Positions 11,272 to 29,164 of a stretch of DNA of 29,164 nucleotides are shown piece after piece. How positions within the stretch are numbered: the stretch's first letter is position 1; every line of letters begins with the position of its first letter. The position numbers and the translations under genes are program-made. Below the pieces are notes generated by a model. That model searched no databases. It was not told the DNA's origin and was given only the letters and a program-made list of their open reading frames with translations. Source of the stretch: a virus; IMG/VR virus record IMGVR_UViG_3300032294_002075, positions 1 to 29,164 of that record; one strand, 5' to 3'.

Positions 11272-13386
11272 TTAGCCGGGAATGAACGTGCCGCCGACAA
11301 ATGCGGTGCTTGCGTTGGTAGTCAGCTCCTTGTTTCGTTCCAGTTGACTGACCGTGAACCGCTTGCCTCTTGTACTCAGGCGAAAGGCACCATAGGGAGT
11401 TGAATAGTCGCTACCAAAATTAGTATCGGCGTTGGCTGATTCGGATTCGGAGTCCAGTTGAATGACGGTCTGGTTTAATTCATCATCGCGGCCAGCTTCG
11501 GCGCCAGTAACAGGAACAAACCGATACTCGTAGTAGCCAGCTGTACGGGGTTGTATCCGGAGGAAGTTGAACTGGTCAACTGGTGCTGTGCCTGACACGC
11601 AGAACAGTTGAGGGATGCGTGCCCAAGCCCTTTCCGCTTCGCCAAACTTTTGCACGGGTCGCACCAGCACAGAGAAAAACGAGGAGCGCGCAAAGTAGCG
11701 ATCCAGTCGTGGTGTATTCAGTGTGATGTTTTTCCTGTCCAGTCGGAAGAGCTTGGCTGGTGTCGGGATCGTGTTGAAATTGGTGAGGCCACTAGCGCGA
11801 TTCCACACTTGGCTTTTGATCCCGATTTCAATGACATCGGCATCACGACGAACTGGCCTGACAGTGGCTTCGCTGTAGCGGCACAGCGGGAAGAACCCAG
11901 TACCAATGTTGGTAGCGGGATCAAAGTCTTGACCGTTCGGACCTGATCCGGGGCCGTCGTAACCAGCTAGTGGTTCGTTAATCGTGCGTGTACCGCAGGC
12001 ACCAATCTGCGGGTTCTTCTGGATTTCAGTGCATTCGAGCGTAACGTTGATGAACTGCGCGCCAGGTTGCGGGTCGCGATCACGAACGATCCAGATGGTT
12101 GAGCCGATAATCCAGCGCGAGCCAATCGTTAGCAAGTCGTCAGCTCGGGTGCGCCAAGCATCAGCGGCGCTTTCAAGGTCGGTCAGGTTGACTTCAGTAT
12201 CAGCGAAATCGCTACGTTCAAAGTCGTCCCAGTTTTGAAGGCGGATCTGAAAAACAGCTGTCGATCCAACGCTGACGTTGACAAATGTGCGGCTTGAGTA
12301 TTCAGTGTTATTGATGCGGACGATGCCCATCCGCCTTGAGTACTGGCGGCCGACTCCGGGCTGGCCAACGGCGAGTTTTGTTGTTGCAGTGGCGTTCTCA
12401 ACGACGGTGAGCACATCAGCTCGCTTGCCGGCAATCTTTCTGCGTCGTGCTTTGATCTCTGCGCGCTGCTCTTGGTTATCTGCACCTAGTGTTCCAGCCT
12501 CTGGCGCAGCGATGATCTCCCAGTTAAAGCGGAAGGCAGTGCCATTTTCGATGGGTGAGTAGGCACCAAACTGCGATTGATTTTGCGGGTTATAGGCTTG
12601 CGAAAAACCTTGGCTAAATTGCTGGCCACCACCAGTCGGTGCGGTAAACACTTGCCTGCCTAATGTGCCAGTCGCTCCAGCACCGGCGGTGCCTGCAATT
12701 AGTGTTGTGGGTCGGTTAGCATCCTTTTTTGATGACCAGAACAACGCATATTCACTGTCATCAAGAGTAGATAAGCCGGTGGTGCCGACACGGATGCCGC
12801 CGAGTTGTGGAGTCGGTAGGCCAAACTGGCCGGCAACGTAGATACCCTCATAGGACTGGAAAGAGCCGTTAGCGAACAGGCGGCTCCACACCAAAGCTGG
12901 GGCGAGAATTAGACCGCCGGTGGCATCACCATCAGCACCTTCGTCGCGTTTGCCGAATGGCACAGGGATGGTTTGGCCGTATTCGGCCAGGGCGCTGACG
13001 TTATCGAAACTGGTGGTTTGATTGAAGCGTGTGGGGCCGATCTGATCGGAGAGCTGTCGGCTACGGATCCGCGGCTGATTTTCAAGCGTCGGCGCTTTGG
13101 GTGCCAGCAGGATGCTGACGGCTGTGCTTGCCAGACCAATGACAAGGCTTACGACAGCAACAGCAACGGCATTTTCAACATCAGGGATATGGTCATAATC
13201 AGCTGGCCTTATACGCGATTTCAGTTCGGCGTGGCGGATGAACTTGCGGTATTCCTGATCGCTACAACCCAGCGTTTCGATTAACGCGACTTCAAACGGT
13301 AACAGCGGCGGATTGAAAGGAGCGCCGCCGGTTTCCAGTCCACGCTTTTGCTGAGGTTGTTGATGTAGAGGAGTCCCTGCTGCCAT
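11272..13386 (-). CDS. Tail tip protein, J-like first part (with one hydrophobic segment)
   Basis: The 704-aa protein has an N-terminal helical region (LPFEVALIETLGCSDQEYRKFI), then a hydrophobic stretch at residues about 73-95 (AVAVAVVSLVIGLASTAVSILL) as in lambda gpI-type or J-type tip proteins, then a large beta-rich body. The body includes ALAEYGQTIPVPFGKRD, a phrase typical of J-like hubs ('aeyGq.ipvvyGr'), and TAGYYEYRFVPVTGAE. The ATG at 13386 overlaps the K-like gene by 106 bases. A strong GGGGTGA lies just upstream inside that gene, and no better internal start exists. Together with the next gene it makes up what is a single large gene in lambda. Confidence 0.75.
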   Translation of the reverse strand: MAAGTPLHQQPQQKRGLETGGAPFNPPLLPFEVALIETLGCSDQEYRKFIRHAELKSRIRPADYDHIPDVENAVAVAVVSLVIGLASTAVSILLAPKAPTLENQPRIRSRQLSDQIGPTRFNQTTSFDNVSALAEYGQTIPVPFGKRDEGADGDATGGLILAPALVWSRLFANGSFQSYEGIYVAGQFGLPTPQLGGIRVGTTGLSTLDDSEYALFWSSKKDANRPTTLIAGTAGAGATGTLGRQVFTAPTGGGQQFSQGFSQAYNPQNQSQFGAYSPIENGTAFRFNWEIIAAPEAGTLGADNQEQRAEIKARRRKIAGKRADVLTVVENATATTKLAVGQPGVGRQYSRRMGIVRINNTEYSSRTFVNVSVGSTAVFQIRLQNWDDFERSDFADTEVNLTDLESAADAWRTRADDLLTIGSRWIIGSTIWIVRDRDPQPGAQFINVTLECTEIQKNPQIGACGTRTINEPLAGYDGPGSGPNGQDFDPATNIGTGFFPLCRYSEATVRPVRRDADVIEIGIKSQVWNRASGLTNFNTIPTPAKLFRLDRKNITLNTPRLDRYFARSSFFSVLVRPVQKFGEAERAWARIPQLFCVSGTAPVDQFNFLRIQPRTAGYYEYRFVPVTGAEAGRDDELNQTVIQLDSESESANADTNFGSDYSTPYGAFRLSTRGKRFTVSQLERNKELTTNASTAFVGGTFIPG

Positions 13387-21280: not shown

Positions 21281-21970
21281 TTAACGACTCGCAGCTGCTT
21301 TCATTCGCTCGTACAAATCACGATCGGTGCGATACAACCGTGCCTGTTCGGTCAGATTGAATGACTCACGGGTGAATGGATTCTTCATCCCAGATGGCAT
21401 ACCACTCGGTGCCGTGCTGCTTGGTGCACCGGAACCTTGCGGCTTGGGTTGCTTCTGCATCCAGGCGGGCAGATTGTTCTTCGCCCAGTCCGTCACTGGT
21501 GTGCGCTCAAAGCCTTGGACCACAACGACAGTGCCATCGGCTTCGCGTTCGATCTGATCGGCGCTGAGCTTGGTCTTAAGCACCAGATCCGGATCGTGGA
21601 CGATATCGGCCAGTGCCGTAACAGCTGGTGCTACTAGCTCCAGTTCACGTACGCGGGCTTCCAACTCAGCGATGCGTTGATCGCGCTGTGCTGTTGCCTC
21701 GCGAAACTGCTGCTCTAACTGCTGGCGAGCCTCTTGGTACTTGCCCTGTGATTCGAGCTGCTGCTGCTCGTGGTTGCGCTTGAACTCAACGAGCTCTTGG
21801 ATGTTGTAGTCAGAAGGGAGCTGCTCAGCTAGCTGTTCATACTTGCGCAGCTTGCGCTTCTCCTCGGCGAGCTCTTTGTTCTTGCGCTCAAGGTTTTCGA
21901 CACTGCGCTTGAGGGCTTCAACATCAGCCGCTGGAGTCGCTGACTCTACGGCTTGCATTTCATCGGACAT
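21281..21970 (-). CDS. Capsid scaffolding protein
   Basis: The 229-aa protein is acidic and highly helical. Residues about 15-115 form a long coiled coil (LKRSVENLERKNKELAEEKRKLRKYEQL and QARQQLEQQFREATAQRDQRIAELEARVREL). A linker rich in Pro, Gly and Ser (GSGAPSSTAPSGMPSGM) leads to a basic C-terminal helix (LYRTDRDLYERMKAAASR) that would bind the capsid shell. This layout and the place just before the capsid gene are standard for scaffolds. The start at 21970 is supported by an unusual split ribosome site (see separate entry). No protease motif is present; whether the scaffold is cleaved or released is unknown. Confidence 0.9.
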   Translation of the reverse strand: MSDEMQAVESATPAADVEALKRSVENLERKNKELAEEKRKLRKYEQLAEQLPSDYNIQELVEFKRNHEQQQLESQGKYQEARQQLEQQFREATAQRDQRIAELEARVRELELVAPAVTALADIVHDPDLVLKTKLSADQIEREADGTVVVVQGFERTPVTDWAKNNLPAWMQKQPKPQGSGAPSSTAPSGMPSGMKNPFTRESFNLTEQARLYRTDRDLYERMKAAASR

Positions 21971-21999
21971 TAATAACCCGCAGGGTTAATTGCCTCTTT
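21968..21999 (-). promoter_or_regulatory. Probable split ribosome binding site with hairpin
   Basis: The purine-rich AAAGAGG (21999-21993) is 22 bases before the scaffold ATG, too far for normal initiation. Between them sits an exact six-pair hairpin, TAACCC-TGC-GGGTTA (21988-21974). Folding it out leaves seven bases, the optimal distance. T4 gene 25 uses the same device. Pairing is seen in the sequence; the function is inference. Confidence 0.55.
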
Positions 22000-22002
22000 A
22001 CT

Positions 22003-22194
22003 TTACTTCTTGCCCTTCTTTTTGTTAGCGATGCCAGCTTCACTCAGGGCGATTGCAAGTGCCTGCCTGCGGCTTTTGACGCGCGGTCCTTTTCCGCGTC
22101 CTGGTTTGCCGCTGTTCAGCGTCCCGCGCTTGTACTCCTCCAACACTTTCGCCACTTTCCTCTGTGCTTTGGCCATCACGCCAGTCGACGACAT
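22003..22194 (-). CDS. Small basic protein (DUF6496-like)
   Basis: The 63-residue protein includes the stretch MAKAQRKVAKVLEEYKRGTLNSG...GKGPRVKSRRQALAIALSEAGIANKKKGKK. This matches the short DUF6496-type family ('kv.kVM.Efk.G.L.SG....VksrkQAiAIALSEag'), seen in phages and in bacteria. The family usually starts near the second Met (22176-22174), so the true protein may have 57 residues. No clear Shine-Dalgarno precedes either ATG. It is strongly basic, may bind nucleic acid, and is of unknown function. Most of the gene overlaps the 3' half of the preceding frame. Confidence 0.75.
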   Translation of the reverse strand: MSSTGVMAKAQRKVAKVLEEYKRGTLNSGKPGRGKGPRVKSRRQALAIALSEAGIANKKKGKK

Positions 22195-22345
22195 CTAGAA
22201 GCAAGCTACCGCCATCAGCTGTAGCCCAGCCCTTGTCGGTATAGATCGCTGGCTGCCAAGCATCGCCAAGCTTGACCTGCACAGGATCGCTATGCACCGT
22301 GAAGATGCCGCTGTTGACGAAGTGGCGTAGATCAGGGTGTGCCAT
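22040..22345 (-). CDS. Hypothetical protein, 3' half overlapping the DUF6496-like gene
   Basis: The predicted 101-aa protein starts MAHPDLRHFVNSGIFTVHSDP, with a GAAGAAG about seven bases upstream, and overlaps the MuF-like gene end by 14 bases. Residues 1-55 (VQVKLGDAWQPAIYTDKGWATADGGSLLLDVVDW) look like a genuine small beta domain. From residue about 56 the sequence turns into a Gln/Arg/Thr-rich read-out (RDAEQRQTRTRKRTAR) of the basic gene in another frame. Either the two genes truly overlap by about 150 bases, or an earlier stop was lost and the tail is passive. Function unknown. Confidence 0.5.
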   Translation of the reverse strand: MAHPDLRHFVNSGIFTVHSDPVQVKLGDAWQPAIYTDKGWATADGGSLLLDVVDWRDGQSTEESGESVGGVQARDAEQRQTRTRKRTARQKPQAGTCNRPE

Positions 22346-23516
22346 AACGCTTCTTCAGCTGATCCAACGTTAATTCTGATCCGTCATCACGCACCAGTTT
22401 GGCCATGGCATCACCAGGGCCATACTTTTCGGACAGCAGCTGGAAGTAACCCAGTTTGCTAGCACCCAGTACCTCTTCTTGCACGCTCTTAGGCTGTTGA
22501 GCTAACCACTCGCCGTAGCTCAAGTCAATTGGCACCTGACCATTGGTACTCGAACGTGTGGCTCGATCTGATGGCGGCAAGATCTCAGCGCGGACCACGG
22601 GCACCACAACACTGCGGCAGTTGAAATGCTGCGGTGGCCGCGGACCCTTGCCATAAGGAAACTCACGGCCGTCTAAAGCCCGGCAGATCGAGCTGGTGCG
22701 GCTATCGAGTGTGGCCACGTACCTGTAGGTGGTCGTTATGTCTTGATTGGCCTGATACACCTGCATCGAGGAGGTGTTAGCAACCTGGTTGATGCTGGTG
22801 CGCACCAAGGCCACGATTTGGTTATTGGCGACAGCAGTGGCCTGACCGCCGGCGGCCACCACCTGCTTCACCGTGCGGGCACTCTCCCCAAACTCCAGCT
22901 TGCCGACCAGCTGTCGTGCAATCTCCGGTGTCGGTGTGCCCTCTTGTAAGCCAGTGCGGACGACCTGCGCAAAGCGTTCAGCCTGCGTTTCGGCCAGACC
23001 GCGAAATGCTTTCAACACCACCTGGCCATTGGGCAGCGTGATGCGGGTGCCGCGTGCTGCTGTTAACCCATAGGTCTGCGGTACACCCTGCACTGCAGCA
23101 AAGAGATCATCGCTCAGTGTGGCCACATTGAGCTGCGTCGGATCAACGACGACCACCGACTGGCCAAAGTTGGGGCTGACCTTCACGGGTACAACCGTGG
23201 GCCTTAGCGCTACCGGTAACACCCTCTCAAGCTCACGACGGACAAAATCTGTTTGCAGTTCCGCCAGACCCTGCAATTCAGTGGCCGTCAACGCAACAGC
23301 TTGATCGGCCCAGTTGGCTAACGCTAAGCGCAGCTGCGACAGAATCTGCCGCAATGCTGATGCCTTCGCCGGTGCTTCTGCATCGTCAATAGCGCGCAGC
23401 TGGTTCGCAGCGGCCACCATGATCCGGTTATAGAGGTTGATCAGCTGACGCGAGAGGCTATTGCTATAGCGGTTCAGGTCAACCACGTTCCGATACAAGC
23501 GGGACGGAACACTCAT
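22332..23516 (-). CDS. Minor head protein, Mu F / SPP1 gp7-like
   Basis: The 394-aa protein has a helical N-terminal half (residues 1-105). The conserved Phage_Mu_F domain lies at about 225-310: RTSINQVANTSSMQVYQAN, YRYVATLDSRTSSICRALDG with C278, and PRPPQHFNCRSVVVPV with H297 and C300. These are the usual 'lD.rts..C..ldG......p.p..HpnCrc....v' residues. Such proteins bind the portal and are packaged in a few copies inside the head, sometimes aiding DNA ejection. It follows the portal region directly and couples by ATGA to the upstream 106-aa gene. The C-terminal end (DGSELTLDQLKKRYGTP) is short and polar. Confidence 0.9.
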   Translation of the reverse strand: MSVPSRLYRNVVDLNRYSNSLSRQLINLYNRIMVAAANQLRAIDDAEAPAKASALRQILSQLRLALANWADQAVALTATELQGLAELQTDFVRRELERVLPVALRPTVVPVKVSPNFGQSVVVVDPTQLNVATLSDDLFAAVQGVPQTYGLTAARGTRITLPNGQVVLKAFRGLAETQAERFAQVVRTGLQEGTPTPEIARQLVGKLEFGESARTVKQVVAAGGQATAVANNQIVALVRTSINQVANTSSMQVYQANQDITTTYRYVATLDSRTSSICRALDGREFPYGKGPRPPQHFNCRSVVVPVVRAEILPPSDRATRSSTNGQVPIDLSYGEWLAQQPKSVQEEVLGASKLGYFQLLSEKYGPGDAMAKLVRDDGSELTLDQLKKRYGTP

Positions 23517-23833
23517 GTCTCAATACCCAATTCCTTTGGCTGGTAAGACGAACTAATGCTGACGTTGGCGCCAGCACGCAAGGACGAGATGATCAACGTC
23601 GTGAAGTCGTCGTAACTGTGCTCACCCTGTTCGTAGAGCACTGTTTCGCCGATTTCATCAGCGCGGCCGTTTTTGTACCAGCTCACACGCACGATCGCCA
23701 GGATTTCATCCGGCAGGTCGCAGACGTGGTAATCCAGCTCCTGCCGGCGCGGTGGCTTCGGCTCCAGCATGATCATCCAATCAATTAGGTGGCTGGTTGT
23801 CCAATCGAGCAGGTTGTAAATCAAGCCCCGCAT
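23513..23833 (-). CDS. Hypothetical protein between portal and MuF-like genes
   Basis: The predicted 106-aa protein starts at 23833 inside the last 53 bases of the portal gene. I kept this start because AGGAG stands nine bases upstream. Internal ATGs at 23776 and 23770, just after the portal stop, are alternatives that would give a core beginning MIMLEPKPPRRQELDYHVC. The core (LPDEILAIVRVSWYKNGRADEIGETVLYEQGEH...FTTLIISSLRAGANVSI) looks like an alpha/beta fold with no known motif. It couples to the MuF-like gene by ATGA, suggesting a role in head assembly. Family not recognised. Confidence 0.7.
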   Translation of the reverse strand: MRGLIYNLLDWTTSHLIDWMIMLEPKPPRRQELDYHVCDLPDEILAIVRVSWYKNGRADEIGETVLYEQGEHSYDDFTTLIISSLRAGANVSISSSYQPKELGIET

Positions 23834-25178
23834 TGGCCGTTGCTCCTATTTCTTCCTCCACGTTAAAGTCATCTCCCAGCACTTCACCATCGGCTAACTG
23901 CTGCAGCAGCGTTTCCTGCGTGATTGTGCCAGCGGTATAGAGCGACAGTAGCGCTGTGATCTGCTGGGGCTCTAGCTGTGCACCAAGGAAATCACGGTTG
24001 ACCAAACTGCTACCTGCTGCTTGGTTTTGACCTAGGAATTGGGCGTGGTACTGCAAGGAGTTATCAATCATGTCTTGCACGTTCTGAGCGATCACCATCA
24101 TGGTGCTATCGCCTTGGCTGCGATCAATCATCTTGGCGCTAGCCGTTTCACCGACAAGCTTTTGACCCAGCACAGCGGATAGACCCAGTTCGTTGATCTG
24201 ACGCTCTAGCTGATCAAGGCGCTGGAATTGCGAATCAAAGGCATCGCTAGGTGGTGCGATGTACTCGGCGCGGCCGTCGGCAGGAAAGGCGATCGCTTCA
24301 CCAGGACCAGCGGAGACTTCCTCAGCAGCAGAGGGGAAGCCAAAGAATGCGAGCATGGGCACCGCTGAGATATGGAGCTGGTTGTCTAGGTCCGATTGGA
24401 TCTGATACGCCTTTAGGTTGAGCTCGGCGATATCTTCGAGCGGCGGTCGCGATTCGAGGTAATTGATGCGGCCGCAATAGGCCACAGAGAATGGGATTTC
24501 ATCGAGGCTGGTCGTTCCTTCGTCGACCACCTGGTATTCACCGTTATCGGCTTGCTGATGGATCTGGTAAGCGCCAGGCGTTAAGACACGCACCTGCTGC
24601 ACGATTCTTTCGCCGTACTCAGCCTCTGGCATGGTGACCGTCTCCTGTAGACGCAACATGCTCAGGCGCTGCTCACCGTTGCTTTGCTCTGTGCGCCAGC
24701 CAAGGATCTGCCTAGGGGTATAAGTCACCCAGTAAGGCCGGCCACCATCAGACGGTGCATCGACCAGTGTGCCGATATGGCCGTATCGGATCAGCTTGCG
24801 GGTGGTTTCATAGGTCCAGACGTTGAGGTCATTGCCTTGTAGGTCAACATCAAAGAGCTGCTCGCGAATCGTGTCACTGGTGTCGACCAGCCTTACAGGC
24901 TTTCGCGTCAGCATGCCAGCCAGCATGCGCTCCAAGCGCTGGTAATACGGCGGGCAAACGCTACGCGCTAAACGGTTGTCGTAACTTTCGTCGAGCTCAC
25001 GTGGCTCTTGCGGTAGATATCGCCGATGCCGTCTACGCATGCCATAAGTGCCATGCAGCAGGTCTTCAATCAAAATCCAATGCGGTTCTTGAGCGAACCA
25101 GGCTGTATTGGGGTCGCTGACTTTTACTACCGCACGTTGCGCTAGCGGTCGGTCGTATTGCCTAAAACCTGAATACAC
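23781..25178 (-). CDS. Portal protein (DUF4055 family)
   Basis: The 465-aa protein starts at GTG (MYSGFRQYDRPLAQR), with GGTGG four bases upstream and no nearer ATG. The N-terminal SVCPPYYQRLERMLAGMLTRKPVRL, then RKLIRYGHIGTLVDAPSDGGRPYWVTYTPRQILGWR and IPFSVAYCGRINYLESRPPLEDIAELNLKAYQIQSDLDNQLHISAVPML, is the pattern of DUF4055 portals, a branch frequent in phages of cyanobacteria and proteobacteria. The LGLSAVLGQKLVGETASAKMIDRSQGDSTMMVIAQNVQDMI helix corresponds to the portal stem/wing. Twelve copies should form the DNA entry ring. The C-terminus is Asn/Gln-rich (ARLDNQPPN). A terminator lies 58 bases before its start. Confidence 0.9.
   Translation of the reverse strand: MYSGFRQYDRPLAQRAVVKVSDPNTAWFAQEPHWILIEDLLHGTYGMRRRHRRYLPQEPRELDESYDNRLARSVCPPYYQRLERMLAGMLTRKPVRLVDTSDTIREQLFDVDLQGNDLNVWTYETTRKLIRYGHIGTLVDAPSDGGRPYWVTYTPRQILGWRTEQSNGEQRLSMLRLQETVTMPEAEYGERIVQQVRVLTPGAYQIHQQADNGEYQVVDEGTTSLDEIPFSVAYCGRINYLESRPPLEDIAELNLKAYQIQSDLDNQLHISAVPMLAFFGFPSAAEEVSAGPGEAIAFPADGRAEYIAPPSDAFDSQFQRLDQLERQINELGLSAVLGQKLVGETASAKMIDRSQGDSTMMVIAQNVQDMIDNSLQYHAQFLGQNQAAGSSLVNRDFLGAQLEPQQITALLSLYTAGTITQETLLQQLADGEVLGDDFNVEEEIGATANAGLDLQPARLDNQPPN
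24289..24296. other. Single HIP1 octamer (GCGATCGC)
   Basis: This palindrome is hugely over-represented in many cyanobacterial chromosomes. It is the only copy I noticed in the window, lying inside the portal gene. Scarcity is compatible with a cyanophage escaping host-type accumulation but says little alone. Confidence 0.6.
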
Positions 25179-25236
25179 AGCGCCACCGATGCGATGTGAT
25201 CAGTTTAGGCAATGAGCCCCAAGGGCTATAGGCAAT

Positions 25237-25264
25237 AAAAAAGCCCTGGCCCCACCTCCAGAGC
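25237..25264 (-). terminator. Rho-independent terminator between terminase and portal
   Basis: On the minus strand GCTCTGG, loop AGGTGGGG, CCAGGGC is followed by six T. The stem is seven pairs with one wobble. It ends the terminase transcript and leaves the portal gene, 58 bases later, dependent on read-through or its own promoter. I see no convincing promoter in that short gap. Confidence 0.8.
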
Positions 25265-25283
25265 TTGATGTGGTTCGACAAAA

Positions 25284-25415
25284 TCAATATATGCGTATTC
25301 CAGTGCTTCTGCCAGCGCCTGAATGTAAAGGATTAAATTCACGCCAGATCAGGTAGCCAAGCGCATCATTCATGTGGTCGTAACCAGCTTCTTTGCACGA
25401 TTGGCGCCACCCATG
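25284..25415 (-). pseudogene. Remnant of a second terminase large subunit C-terminus
   Basis: Between the terL stop (25517) and the terminator, the minus strand encodes, without a start, HGWRQSCKEAGYDHMNDALG then YLIWREFNPLHSGAGR and STGIRIY, ending at TGA 25286-25284. The motif G-Y-D-H-M-N-D-A-L-G-Y is the last catalytic segment of large terminase subunits (the third nuclease Asp in 'DHxxDALxY'). The order of residues parallels the end of the resident TerL (GGWDHGWDALSYGVIGVFDP...GVRVY), down to the final R-x-Y. It is too short to be a gene. It is probably the stump left when the terL gene was replaced by recombination, or a diverged duplicate of the gene's end. The 100 bases between it and the terL stop carry no recognisable motif. 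Confidence 0.75.
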
Positions 25416-25516
25416 CAGGGGTAGAGGTCGTGACAAAGACAAATGGGGTGTCCGAAGAGGCCGCCGGGTTCAACTAACCGCACCAAGCTTAGTAGATGCG
25501 AGTCATCTGTCACAAG

Positions 25517-26845
25517 TCAATAGACACGCACGCCACGCACTGCCTTGCCAGCTGTGCTCTTCCAAGGATGAACTGGATCGAATACACCGATCACGCCATA
25601 GGACAAAGCATCCCAACCATGATCCCAGCCGCCGTCCTTATCCGGCATGTTCGTGCCTTCCTTAAAGGTCAGGTTGCGCAAACTCTTAATCGTCTGTTTG
25701 CAGTTGGGGTGGATAAACAATCGACGGTTGCCGTTGGCATCGCAGACCATCGCATTGATGGCATTGCGCTTGTCGTCTTGCATATAGGGACGCTTGTTCT
25801 CTGACACCCAGAGACCACGGCTGCGGAGGATGCCGTGGTCGGTCTTACCACCTGCTGAGGTCTTCCTGGCATGACCTGTAGGGTCGGGGTAGACGCGGAT
25901 CATGCGGTCGGGGTAGCGGCGCAGCAGTTCGGAGGCAGCCTCCTCAGTGTGGGTCTCGCGGATGTGGATCTCGTCGAAGCAATGCAGCTGATCGCCCACC
26001 TTCTGGCCGATGATCCAGTGCATGGGTGAGACGTTGAAGTCCGCGCAGACAATCAGCTCACCGCCCAGATCGGTTAGGTCGTCGCGGATGTTGTCGTCAC
26101 TGAAATCAGGCACTACGCGACCGACGAGGTTGACGAAGGATGCTTCGTATTCCTGAGAGAAGGTGCGCGGGTCAAGGGTGCGGCGTGCTGCTTCGATTTC
26201 ATCGGCGCTGACCTGACCGCCTTGTAGGGTGTTGAAGGTGAAGGTGGAGGCGTCGGGATCGTCGTCGGCAGCGTCCCAGGCTTCCGCGAACCAGTTCAGG
26301 CCTGCTGGAGTGGTGGTGAACCACGCTGGGCCTTGCTGATCGGAGAGGGCAGGGCGGAGCACCATGGTCCAGGCGTCTTCGCGGACGTAGGCGGCTTCAT
26401 CGACGACGCAGCCGGAAAGGCTCACACCACGGAGGCGATCTGGATCCTCAGCACCTTTGAGGAAGATCGTGCTGCCGTTGGCTAGGTGAACCGATAGCTC
26501 GGTCTCGTTTTTATGGGAAAAGATCTCTGGAGGCACCATCTGCTTGAGCTGCACCCAAGCGATCTGCTTGGCCATGCGATAAGTGGGTGCCACGTAGTAG
26601 AAGAGGCCGCCTGGACGGTCGAGGCCCCAGGTGATCAGGCGCGTGAGGGAGAGGTAGGTCTTACCGAAGCGACGACCGGAGCAGAGATAGGTGAAGCGTG
26701 TGGAGGCGTCGTAGACCTGGCGTTGTGCGTCGGTTAGGGAGTTGTAGAGGTTGAGCTTGAGGGCATCCAGTTCAGCTGACTGATCTTCGGGGACGAGGAA
26801 GCTGAGCAGGCTGGAGTTAGTGGTGATGCCAGTGAGAAGGCTCAC
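25517..26845 (-). CDS. terL: Terminase large subunit
   Basis: The 442-aa packaging motor and nuclease has a Walker A-type P-loop at residues 56-63 (SGRRFGKT), Walker B at 146-150 (CVVDE), and coupling motif TTTP at 177-180. The RNase H-like nuclease domain has likely metal-binding Asp residues at 269 (CADFNVSP), 321 (VYPDPTG) and 412 (WDALSY). The adenine-binding Q-motif is probably LTDAQRQVYD near residue 38. It is complete, with the usual length for this branch. The ATG couples by ATGA to terS. From about 25880 rightward the plus strand is markedly G-rich, unlike the portal region, pointing to a different ancestry for this part of the arm. Confidence 0.95.
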   Translation of the reverse strand: MSLLTGITTNSSLLSFLVPEDQSAELDALKLNLYNSLTDAQRQVYDASTRFTYLCSGRRFGKTYLSLTRLITWGLDRPGGLFYYVAPTYRMAKQIAWVQLKQMVPPEIFSHKNETELSVHLANGSTIFLKGAEDPDRLRGVSLSGCVVDEAAYVREDAWTMVLRPALSDQQGPAWFTTTPAGLNWFAEAWDAADDDPDASTFTFNTLQGGQVSADEIEAARRTLDPRTFSQEYEASFVNLVGRVVPDFSDDNIRDDLTDLGGELIVCADFNVSPMHWIIGQKVGDQLHCFDEIHIRETHTEEAASELLRRYPDRMIRVYPDPTGHARKTSAGGKTDHGILRSRGLWVSENKRPYMQDDKRNAINAMVCDANGNRRLFIHPNCKQTIKSLRNLTFKEGTNMPDKDGGWDHGWDALSYGVIGVFDPVHPWKSTAGKAVRGVRVY

Positions 26846-27165
26846 GACATCTCAAAGCGGAGCAACTTGGCCTGGTCTTCGAGGGCCTTGAGGGCAACAC
26901 CGAGCTGATTGGATTCAGAGGCGCGGCGTTCGTAGTCGTAAAGGCGAGCGACGGCGGCGGCAAGCCATTGGGGGCGTTCGAGTTCGGCATCCAGTTGCAT
27001 TAACTGGCGTGCGCGTTGGATATAGGTTTCGGCTGTACGTTCGGCCACTCCCCATTCATCCGCCGCGTATCGCAAGATTTGAGTGCGGCTGTAAGCGCGA
27101 AGAAGCAGGTCGTAAACGGCGTTGACCCGTTCGTCAATCTGTACGTTAGTTGCCTTCTTTGCCAT
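26842..27165 (-). CDS. terS: Terminase small subunit
   Basis: The protein has 107 residues starting MAKKATNVQIDERVNAVYDLL. Residues about 24-53 (AYSRTQILRYAADEWGVAERTAETYIQRARQL) form a helix-turn-helix of the 'sr..il.ya...wgvs.rt...yi..Ar' type seen in TerS and phage packaging proteins. The C-terminal half is helical (LAAAVARLYDYERRASE...VALKALEDQAKLLRFE), as needed for oligomer rings. It recognises the packaging site and regulates the motor. Direct ATGA coupling to terL supports the call. The gap before it (27166-27240) is a purine-rich tract on the plus strand and could belong to the packaging signal. Confidence 0.85.
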   Translation of the reverse strand: MAKKATNVQIDERVNAVYDLLLRAYSRTQILRYAADEWGVAERTAETYIQRARQLMQLDAELERPQWLAAAVARLYDYERRASESNQLGVALKALEDQAKLLRFEMS

Positions 27166-27240
27166 GGCCGGAGTTTAACCGGAAGTGAAGAGGAGGTGAG
27201 TGTGTCGAAGGAGTTTAGAGGGTGGAGGAGGGGGTTTTAA

Positions 27241-27822
27241 TTAGGTTAGTGAGAGGGGGATGATCGTGATGAGAGCGCCTGGGTGTTCACCTGGTGTGGT
27301 GTAGCGCTTGGTATGCGAAGAGATTGCAATCCGCGCGTCATCTTGAAGCAGGCCGCTATCGACGAGGGCATCTTCAGTAGAGCGGAGGCATTTGGAGCCA
27401 TCCGGCTTGACGCTGTGAAAGGTGGGGGCTGAGGGTTTGAGGATGCCCTTTGTGTTGTAGTGGGATTTGGGTCTAGGGAAGATAAAGACGATGGACAGGG
27501 AGACCGGACCAGAGATAGTGGGATGGTTAGTGGCTACTGCGGCTTGTTGAACGAGGTAGCGCCAGGGTTTGAGGTTTTTGCAGGATTCGAGCATTACGCC
27601 ATTGCCTACATGTCTCTTGCTTCCTTGTGGCTGGGGTGCCATGCCAGCGACGGTAAAGGTGATGGCTTCAGGCTGCGGCGACGGTGGTGATGACGGTTGC
27701 GACGATAGCTTCGAGTTGACAGCGTGGGATACCGGAGACGGTGCGAGCTGCGTTGTCGATGGCACGTTGATAGGTGCTGAGGTCAACGGGAGGTGGCGCG
27801 ATAGCACCGAGGGCGCGCTCAC
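27241..27822 (-). CDS. RusA-family Holliday junction resolvase (start uncertain)
   Basis: From residue about 54 on, the frame reads ITFTVAGMAPQPQGSKRH, a YLVQQ helix, VSLSIVFIFPRPKSHYN, VKPDGSKCLRSTEDALVDSGL and LQDDARIAIS. These are the landmarks of RusA: glycine-proline loop, 'f..prp.sh', 'KPD..kl.R...DAL...g...DD..i'. RusA dimers cut branched DNA to clear recombination or replication junctions before packaging. The first 53 residues are Pro/Ser-rich read-out of the preceding gene, so the true start is unclear. The ATG at 27642 would lose the first strand, and a GTG at 27765 overlaps the previous gene. The acidic residue that follows KPD in E. coli RusA (D72) is Ser143 here. Confidence 0.8.
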   Translation of the reverse strand: MSAPSVLSRHLPLTSAPINVPSTTQLAPSPVSHAVNSKLSSQPSSPPSPQPEAITFTVAGMAPQPQGSKRHVGNGVMLESCKNLKPWRYLVQQAAVATNHPTISGPVSLSIVFIFPRPKSHYNTKGILKPSAPTFHSVKPDGSKCLRSTEDALVDSGLLQDDARIAISSHTKRYTTPGEHPGALITIIPLSLT

Positions 27823-27925
27823 GGATTAGCTGTCCGCGTGAGGTATGAAGAGCAGCGGCTTGGTGATCAAGGGTTTGACGTTCTTGATGGGTTAGCCAGA
27901 TTTTGATCTGCTCGCGCTTTTGCAT
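27668..27925 (-). CDS. Ribbon-helix-helix-like small protein
   Basis: The 85-aa protein starts MQKREQIKIWLTHQERQTLDHQAAALHTSRGQLIRERALG. A short strand (QIKIWLT), a helix, an HTSR turn and a second helix (LIRERALG) give the ribbon-helix-helix pattern found in small repressors and in MobC/relaxosome-type proteins. The second half (DLSTYQRAIDNAARTVSGIPRCQLEAIVATVITTVAAA) is helical and unassigned. It may regulate the early operon. The palindrome at the upstream promoter is a candidate site, but the link is speculative. It overlaps the RusA frame and the previous gene. Confidence 0.6.
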   Translation of the reverse strand: MQKREQIKIWLTHQERQTLDHQAAALHTSRGQLIRERALGAIAPPPVDLSTYQRAIDNAARTVSGIPRCQLEAIVATVITTVAAA

Positions 27926-28109
27926 GCGTTTTAGTGATTATTGCCCGGATGATCAGTGTGGCGACTGGTAGGCGTGATTGTTGACGTTGGAGGTACCAGC
28001 GTTCGGCGATGAGGGCTTCTGCGGGATTGTCGGAGAAGGTGCCGAAGGGGGTTAGGTAGGAGCCGGTGACGGAGATGAGCCAGCAGGGTTGATGGTCGTG
28101 TGGGCTCAT
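27867..28109 (-). CDS. Small hypothetical protein
   Basis: The 80-aa protein starts MSPHDHQPCWLISVTGSYLTPFGTFSDNPAEALIAERWYLQRQQS and couples by ATGA to the 118-aa gene. The first 60 residues look like a real small alpha/beta protein, with a strand, GTFSDNPAEALIAERW helix and PVATLIIRAII strand. The last 20 residues overlap the start of the RHH-like gene. The family is not recognised. Similar small unknowns fill early phage operons. Confidence 0.6.
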   Translation of the reverse strand: MSPHDHQPCWLISVTGSYLTPFGTFSDNPAEALIAERWYLQRQQSRLPVATLIIRAIITKTHAKARADQNLANPSRTSNP

Positions 28110-28462
28110 GATCCACGCACTTCCCAGAAGTGCTTCAGGGTTACCGAGGCCTCGCCCAAGGCGAGTGATAATCGTTCGGATGCCTTGAGCTGTTCGCGTT
28201 GTTCGAGGATGTGATCGGGGTAGGTGACGGATTTACGGGTGCGGCGGGTGATTTTGTAGTCGTTCCAGGTGAGTTGATCTTCTGCTTCACCCGTTTCCAC
28301 CATTTGATCCAGTAGGTCAAGGAGTTGTTGGCGTCGGTTTTGGATGGCCTTCTCACTAGCTGCTAGGGAGGTGAGTTCCTCCAGGGTGGCGTCAAGAGAA
28401 GGCGGTGTAGACGAGTGCAGCGATGAGGATGCAGGTCCAGAGGAAGGTGATGAGATCGCCAT
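28106..28462 (-). CDS. Hypothetical phage protein
   Basis: The predicted 118-aa protein has its only usable ATG at 28462, inside the one-TM gene. Its first 23 residues (SSPSSGPASSSLHSSTPPS) are read-out of that gene and may be nonnative. The rest looks genuine: a helical LEELTSLAASEKAIQNRRQQLLDLLDQMVETGEAED, then LTWNDYKITRRTRKSVTYPDHILEQREQLKASERL and VTLKHFWEVRGS. The YxxxRxxRKSxxYPxxI...W.VR pattern resembles a short, uncharacterised phage family encoded near replication genes. No catalytic motif is seen. Confidence 0.65.
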   Translation of the reverse strand: MAISSPSSGPASSSLHSSTPPSLDATLEELTSLAASEKAIQNRRQQLLDLLDQMVETGEAEDQLTWNDYKITRRTRKSVTYPDHILEQREQLKASERLSLALGEASVTLKHFWEVRGS

Positions 28463-28595
28463 GACGAGCGAGGAAGGATTGGGGTTTGGAGGTTTTGCGG
28501 TGAGGGCGTGATGGCACTGATGGGTGTGTTGTGGTGCGGGAGTAGACGCGGCGATTGGTGCGGGTGATGAAGGGAGGTAGGGATGGTGAGGTCAT
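28392..28595 (-). CDS. Small C-terminally anchored membrane protein
   Basis: The 67-aa protein has a long basic, Ser/Pro/Thr-rich N-terminal part (TRTNRRVYSRTTTHPSVPSRPHRK) and a single hydrophobic helix at residues about 47-66 (DLITFLWTCILIAALVYTAFS). The positive-inside rule puts the N-terminal part in the cytoplasm. GGAG lies six bases before the ATG and the start overlaps the previous stop as ATGA. A role at the host membrane early in infection is possible; the family is unknown. Confidence 0.65.
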   Translation of the reverse strand: MTSPSLPPFITRTNRRVYSRTTTHPSVPSRPHRKTSKPQSFLARHGDLITFLWTCILIAALVYTAFS

Positions 28596-28765
28596 TGAGG
28601 TCTCCAGCCGTTGCGGTAGGCGAGGGTGATGAGGGTTTGACGGTTGTGGGAGAAGAAGGGGATGCCGTGGTCGTCGAGGAACTCGGTGGCGTCTTCTTCG
28701 TGGATGTCGTTGGTGACGGCCTGCTCCAGCAGCAGAGTTAGCTGCCGCTCGCTAGCGCTAGTCAT
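28592..28765 (-). CDS. Small hypothetical protein, 57 aa
   Basis: This frame runs from ATG 28765-28763 to TGA 28594-28592 and is joined by ATGA overlaps on both sides, strong evidence that it is real despite its size. The protein begins MTSASERQLTLLLEQAV, has an acidic middle (NDIHEEDATEFLDDHG) and ends IPFFSHNRQTLITLAYRNGWRPQ. It is helical at the start and has no membrane segment. I know no family for it. Confidence 0.75.
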   Translation of the reverse strand: MTSASERQLTLLLEQAVTNDIHEEDATEFLDDHGIPFFSHNRQTLITLAYRNGWRPQ

Positions 28766-29013
28766 TGACGCTGCGCAAAGGAGTTACGGGAGGCTGCGGA
28801 GCGGCATTCGTCTGCCCAGCTGCTGTCATCAGCGCGGATAGCTGGCGGGACGTATTGGACGGTGTAGGGGATGCCTGCCGCGAGGAAGGTGGCATGCATG
28901 TCGTCGAGATCGTGCTCGTGACACCAGTCGGAGAGGATGGCGCTGTTGAAGAGGTAGCGCTCAGCCCAGCCGGATGGTGCGGCATCTGGGAGAACCGTGT
29001 GGAGCTGGTTCAT
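28762..29013 (-). CDS. First gene of the leftward operon, hypothetical
   Basis: The 83-aa protein starts MNQLHTVLPDAAPSGWAERYLFNSAILSDWCHEHDLDDMHATFLAAGIPYTVQYVPPAIRADD. The Trp-, His- and Asp-rich composition and the helix-strand pattern look natural. It ends in a polar tail and couples to the 57-aa gene by ATGA. It follows the promoter at 29049-29077 by about 36 bases. There is no strong Shine-Dalgarno before the ATG. Function unknown; as first gene of the operon it may be a host take-over or regulatory factor, which is only a guess. Confidence 0.65.
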   Translation of the reverse strand: MNQLHTVLPDAAPSGWAERYLFNSAILSDWCHEHDLDDMHATFLAAGIPYTVQYVPPAIRADDSSWADECRSAASRNSFAQRQ

Positions 29014-29048
29014 GGGTGGTATGCGGTGGGGTCGCCCCCGTGATCAAG

Positions 29049-29077
29049 ACAATAGGCTAGCCAACGCTAGGCGTCAA
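29049..29077 (-). promoter_or_regulatory. Sigma70-type promoter with palindromic spacer
   Basis: On the minus strand TTGACG (29077-29072), an exact 17-base spacer, then TATTGT (29054-29049). The spacer contains the inverted repeat CTAGC-CAAC-GCTAG (plus-strand 29057-29070), a likely operator. The first gene starts 36 bases downstream. This is the best promoter match I found in the window and suits the whole leftward operon. Confidence 0.75.
29057..29070. promoter_or_regulatory. Candidate operator palindrome
   Basis: Inverted repeat CTAGC-N4-GCTAG inside the promoter spacer. A related perfect palindrome, CTAGCGCTAG, lies at 28752-28761 at the start of the second gene, and a half site (CTAGCGA) at 29084-29090. 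A repressor bound here would block RNA polymerase. No repressor gene is identified in the window except possibly the RHH-like protein. Confidence 0.45.
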
Positions 29078-29164
29078 GGGTGACTAGCGATTGGGTGCCG
29101 GGATTCCGATGGAGCCGCATGCTCCTGCCCTGATTCCCCTTGCGGGTGTTGTATTCGGGCCATC
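29074..29164 (-). CDS. Possible C-terminal end of a gene entering from the right edge
   Basis: The minus-strand frame is open from the window edge to a TGA at 29076-29074 and reads MARIQHPQGESGQEHAAPSE then SRHPIASHP. Its stop falls within the -35 box of the promoter, which is a common arrangement where one transcription unit ends at the next promoter. It could equally be a chance frame; the composition (His, Pro, Ser, Gln) is not decisive. A short inverted repeat (GGAGC-CGCAT-GCTCC, 29111-29125) lies within it. Confidence 0.25.
   Translation of the reverse strand, partial: MARIQHPQGESGQEHAAPSESRHPIASHP

Follow-up and report, generated by a model that had tools for sequence, protein, structure and literature searches.

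Recombination scar with the 3' end of a second terL gene behind the resident terL of a cyanobacterial virus

The usual evidence for terminase exchange is conflict between trees. Mosaicism of phage genomes has two standard models, one based on short boundary sequences and the other on illegitimate joints (PMC3233612), and measurements exist of exchange driven by homology between diverged phages (PMC3945230). In phage lambda, the last five residues of TerL are needed for prohead binding, and that end docks on the portal (PMC4856287).

Here we analyzed a stretch of 29,164 nt (the window) from a cyanobacterial virus, in which a short piece of a second terL (the stump) lies between the resident terL and the portal gene (Table 1). 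We compared it with other genomes of its group, all of them metagenomic. We call phages carrying the resident-type TerL A-type and stump-type phages B-type. The resident TerL family of the window is newL, and the terS-terL pair of two close relatives, L012 (IMG/VR 3300010354_013996) and L002 (IMG/VR 3300042331_000577), is oldS-oldL. Two other genomes, L001 (IMG/VR 3300033571_010427) and L120 (IMG/VR 3300005662_004249), have the arrangement of the window. We conclude that the segment is very probably a recombination scar, in which A-type DNA was joined to a B-type terL at its last 36 codons.

Table 1. Features around the scar (positions in the window).
Feature	Position	Strand	Basis or remarks
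Portal gene (B-type), first gene right of the scar	23781..25178	-	76% identical to KBS-S-2A
Terminator-like hairpin, located between stump and portal; shared with L012 and L002	25241..25266	-	
Stump: last 36 codons and stop of a B-type terL (KBS-S-2A/S-H1 clade)	25284..25394	-	TerL similarity; collinearity with L012 and L002
Sequence 3' of the resident terL (A-type), fused directly to the stump	25395..25516	-	Continuity in L085 and L120
Site between CACCCC repeats where 19 nt are deleted in comparison with L120 and L085	25444..25445		Alignment
Resident terL (A-type, 442 aa), intact	25517..26845	-	PHROG terminase large subunit, 1.7e-42; Pfam Terminase_6N, 3.7e-11
Resident small-terminase candidate (107 aa)	26842..27165	-	Position before terL; phrog_34910 (unknown function), 3e-17
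Left junction: conserved 28-nt block CTTCCGGTTAAACTCCGGCCATGGCAAA at the start codon	27158..27185	-	Identical in L012 and in A-type phages, for example L091 and L103
Gene for a RusA-like resolvase, in the A-type left arm	27241..27822	-	

The end of a different terminase gene

The stump encodes the end of a TerL from another clade. The minus strand from 25394 to 25284 encodes the peptide KEAGYDHMNDALGYLIWREFNPLHSGAGRSTGIRIY followed by a stop codon. In tblastn searches of isolated phages, this peptide was 80.6-83.3% identical over 36 residues to the annotated TerL C-termini of KBS-S-2A (E = 4e-16), S-H1 (9e-17), and MED4-184 (3e-15), a similarity far beyond chance, and its relatives are encoded in at least 523 IMG/VR stretches. 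The TerL of L002 was a 100% match to residues 17-52 of the listed 52-aa open reading frame (ORF). The preliminary description had proposed a remnant of another terL downstream of the resident one and before its terminator. The matches and the position of the hairpin agree with this, and the best match was to the KBS-S-2A/S-H1/MED4-184 clade, not to the resident TerL, as replacement predicts. The remnant had been drawn over 25284-25516; it occupies 25394-25284, and the remaining part, 25395-25516, flanks the resident terL on its 3' side. Of TerL, the stump comprises no more than the last 36 codons; these include the C-terminal DHxxDA motif but neither the ATPase domain nor the bulk of the nuclease domain, and the stump is a remnant, not a terminase. 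The resident terL is full length, with a Terminase_6N ATPase domain, and its stop is at 25517.

A diverged duplication of the resident terL end, the alternative raised in the preliminary description, is extremely improbable. The segment does mirror the end of the resident TerL, as had been noticed: both ends have a DHxxDAL motif and finish in R[IV]Y, and the likeness is genuine but weak (43%, E = 1e-4). However, 43% identity to the resident protein compares with 100% to the TerL of L002 and 80.6-83.3% to those of the isolates, and the stump is collinear with L012 DNA through the portal gene. The matches to another TerL clade and this collinearity refute duplication.

The stump is also very unlikely to be functional, either as a small protein or as an alternative C-terminal tail reached by readthrough of TerL. 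It is free of new substitutions, and in L120 (271-525) only one TGA separates it from TerL in the same frame, so that the frame stays open for approximately 83 further codons. In the window and L001, however, the loss of 19 nt puts it out of frame with TerL, and because the frame is destroyed a role in readthrough is unlikely. The surrounding 300 nt, non-coding parts included, are conserved equally, and the stump was found in none of the other fetched portal-bearing relatives. The listed ORF starts with TTG at 25442, the best start available, with no recognizable Shine-Dalgarno sequence, and is a chance fusion of the resident terL 3' flank and the stump. Its first 16 codons (the junction half) were matched among relatives only in L001 and L120, and we therefore rejected an independent small gene, which had been named as an outcome that would argue against a remnant. 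A promoter-like match inside the stump occurred at chance frequency only. A plus-strand reading of 25395-25475 (IGATHAGVEVVTKTNGVSEEAAGFN and a stop) looks protein-like, but its frame is broken in L120. As judged from its sequence, with no ATPase domain, little of the nuclease domain, and no plausible start, the stump would be non-functional, and it would persist because of its place downstream of the resident terL stop and ahead of the portal operon.

Edges of the exchanged block

Close relatives of the window have the same flanks and a different gene block, the pattern of a mosaic-exchange scar. L012 and L002 encode a complete 452-aa TerL, the last 36 codons of which are the stump (107-108 of 108 nt). 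In both genomes, a different terS-like gene and the complete terL are followed by the same portal gene, a gene for a 106-aa protein, and a MuF-like head gene. At the nucleotide level, the window was collinear with L012 over 21287-25394 (97.1%) and 27158-29164 (97.4-97.9%), and with L002 over 22439-25394 (95.2%). Across the terminase region, collinearity with L012 stops at 25394 and 27158, and there was no nucleotide match to L012 or L002 in 25395-27157, indicating that the exchanged block comprises terS, terL, and 122 nt behind terL. Relative to L012, the block runs from the terS start codon to just behind terL, and terS and terL therefore differ together; the resident small-terminase candidate was swapped along with terL, and terS is completely different between the two haplotypes. 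Approximately 254 nt present in L012 and L085 are absent from the window and L001, at window position 28598/28599.

The probability of an assembly chimera is close to negligible. Every sequence is metagenomic, but the junction of the window is also present in L001 (99.9% identical) and in L120, which is 95.6% identical and differs by 19 nt. Assembly error is excluded because these two genomes have the same arrangement, and L120 in particular refutes it.

At the right joint, the sequence at 25395-25516 is present in L120 and absent from L012 and L002. In L085, the TerL region of which is 93.7% identical, nearly the same DNA as in the window follows terL over 25516-25445, until the contig ends. 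The simplest reading of 25395-25516 is DNA that naturally follows the resident terL, joined at 25395/25394 to the B-type tail; for 25444-25395, which is covered by no donor, continuity in L120 suggests this origin. An exact DNA pattern search for a complete A-type parent continuing past 25395 returned only L001, L120, and L085, which ends early.

At the left joint, the window and L012 are identical around the 28-nt block, and the chance expectation of such a block in the window is zero. A 20-nt core of the block, with zero to three mismatches, precedes at least five different first genes (beginning MAKKxTN, MAKERGHY, MANISDLKF, MAKDKTHY, and MAVKTSEH or MAAKTSEH), and was absent from the fetched B-type loci except L012. 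The block may be an operon-start signal that doubles as a recombination boundary.

In A-type phages, we also observed GGTTAAACTCCGGCCATGGC where the packaging operon opens, at the start codon of its first gene, whichever gene follows (window 27185-27158 on the minus strand, L084, L086, L088, L091, L092, and L103); the following genes are small-terminase types and others. A TAAACT approximately 7 nt before the ATG could be the -10 element of a leaderless transcript.

Order of events

The window and L012 are both A/B hybrids with joints at different places, because their left arms are A-type and their head genes are B-type. The left arm of the window had nucleotide relatives only in A-type phages (among L084-L099; L109), L001, and L012, and no matches in the other B-type loci, of which 57 extend 2.5 kb or more upstream of TerL. 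L012 continues for another 4 kb on this side; the first kilobase of it is A-type too, and the scattered matches beyond are mostly to A-type phages. In the window, the A-type segment comprises the left arm, terS, terL, and approximately 120 nt behind terL. It would have been joined to the B-type terL tail, with no visible homology, by non-homologous joining, and from the joint onward the terminator, portal, and head genes are B-type.

The preliminary description had an incoming terL join beyond its own stop and leave the 3' end of the old gene. The scar and the near-identical genomes with the whole gene support such a joint; the direction is another matter, as two orders requiring an equal number of events can produce it. 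In one, for and against which we consider the case evenly balanced, an incoming A-type pair replaced oldS-oldL of an L012-like phage and left the old 3' end, with the conserved 28-nt block serving for the crossover on the left and an illegitimate joint forming on the right. The left block is identical in A phages and L012, which makes every such A phage a possible donor, and L012 equals the window around the block. This order is met, however, by the equally economical alternative, and by 1-2% internal divergence in both haplotypes: oldL differed by 1.2% between L012 and L002, and newL by 2.2% (6 of 273 nt, in the sampled part) between the window and L120. Because both have diverged internally to this extent, neither haplotype is clearly younger, and the scar, which had been expected to date the exchange, gives a relative but not an absolute date.

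In the alternative order, which is plausible and somewhat short of evenly balanced, an A-type phage gained a B-type head module, consisting of the terL tail, the portal, and the head genes, in one illegitimate crossover downstream of its terL, and genomes of the L012 type arose later by gain of a B-type terS-terL. One crossover would then explain the whole window, the entire left arm of which is A-type up to terL, with no nucleotide match in other B-type loci; in L012, the part of the additional 4 kb that lies closest is A-type as well. The later gain, however, needs a B donor with a TerL tail nearly identical to the stump (107-108 of 108 nt). Site patterns in the right arm were scrambled among the four genomes, for example with the window and L012 versus L120 and L002 across 23183-22947, and the SNP patterns gave no ordering of the two haplotypes. 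The scrambled patterns suggest a recombining group in which both terminase haplotypes circulate.

TerL tails, portal types, and known systems

The last residues of TerL appear to follow the type of portal, not the body of TerL, across two TerL families that are approximately 22% identical. We took each TerL and the portal that follows it from the fetched loci (67 dereplicated pairs) and counted portals with at least 65% identity as members of the window's portal family. All 52 TerLs paired with this portal family end in [GNS][IVL]R[ILV]Y, and AG[RK]xTG[IV]R[ILV]Y ends 31 of 32 in the oldL family and 18 of 19 in the L135-like family. The bodies of these two families are 21-24% identical. In L135 (321-1634), L181 (2368-3690), and L189, this portal family is accompanied by a third TerL family, which has the C-terminal tail of the oldL family, and there is no stump; these are further natural combinations of terminases. 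The body of the L135-like TerL is 50% identical to that of S-2L; the portal of S-2L is a different one and its TerL tail is dissimilar (27%; NFSLV). In the newL family, TerLs with an A portal end in [GN][VL]RLY (6/6), and none of the seven with other portals fits (0/7; IPGFR, GQIRR, NRRLS, IGQVW, GWRVY).

The window breaks the usual pairing. It is the single newL case with this portal family and bears the A-type tail AVRGVRVY, which has R[ILV]Y in common with the usual tail. The hybrid probably works because the tail of its TerL, GVRVY, is close to the GIRIY usual for the portal family.

The association of tail and portal may reflect functional matching as in lambda, simple linkage of the terL 3' end to the neighboring portal gene when recombination occurs, or both. 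Because the pattern was noticed while viewing these same data, we raise it here as a hypothesis. The dozen C-terminal residues of TerL could be a portable portal-docking tag that limits terminase exchange, a proposal we make tentatively and rate just short of balanced. With similar reserve, we suggest that any TerL body, once recruited, retains or introduces a tail compatible with the portal already present. If so, phages like the window, with a foreign but similar tail, mark the edge of tolerance.

Other features of the group were seen in the same loci. In many B phages (67 oldL-type loci, for example L015 and L151), relatives of the window TerS (56-80%) were paired with a B-type TerL, indicating that TerS and TerL families reassort here. 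The gap between terL and the portal gene is an insertion hot spot in relatives; in L094, L099, L007, L031, and L063 it holds up to approximately 3 kb of variable cargo, with HNH-like genes recognized by eye. A tail-region protein of 704 aa (11272-13386, minus strand) had no matches in the isolated-phage collection (tblastn). A contig scan with the portal gave only a 70% relative (in a Flavobacteriaceae bin, possibly a binning error) and a 53% relative (in a cyanobacterial bin), and thus identified neither a prophage nor a host.

Both states are present in close relatives, which makes them a natural test of matching within the packaging motor, between TerS and TerL and between the TerL tail and the portal. 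The association of tail and portal across TerL families that are approximately 22% identical is directly testable.

The scar adds a clear new case to a process already known and does not represent a new kind of system. As in the modular evolution of tailed phages, similarity breaks abruptly at gene edges, with a conserved block at one edge of the window's block and no visible homology at the other, and a non-functional gene remnant lies at the joint. Here, in contrast, both haplotypes occur in one closely related group (95-97% identity), and the edges can therefore be placed to the base. The head modules of KBS-S-2A, S-H1, and MED4-184 resemble that of the window (TerL tail 81-83%, portal 60-76%, and major head protein 60-71% identical, with the window's portal and major head protein closest to those of KBS-S-2A, at 76% and 71%), but these isolates retain a complete cognate terL. 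The TerL of cyanophage S-2L is the best isolate match of the resident TerL (48%), with another portal and another C-terminal tail. As in lambda, the last residues of TerL appear to be matched to the portal; unlike in lambda, the matching here is suggested by natural exchanges between TerL families in uncultured phages.
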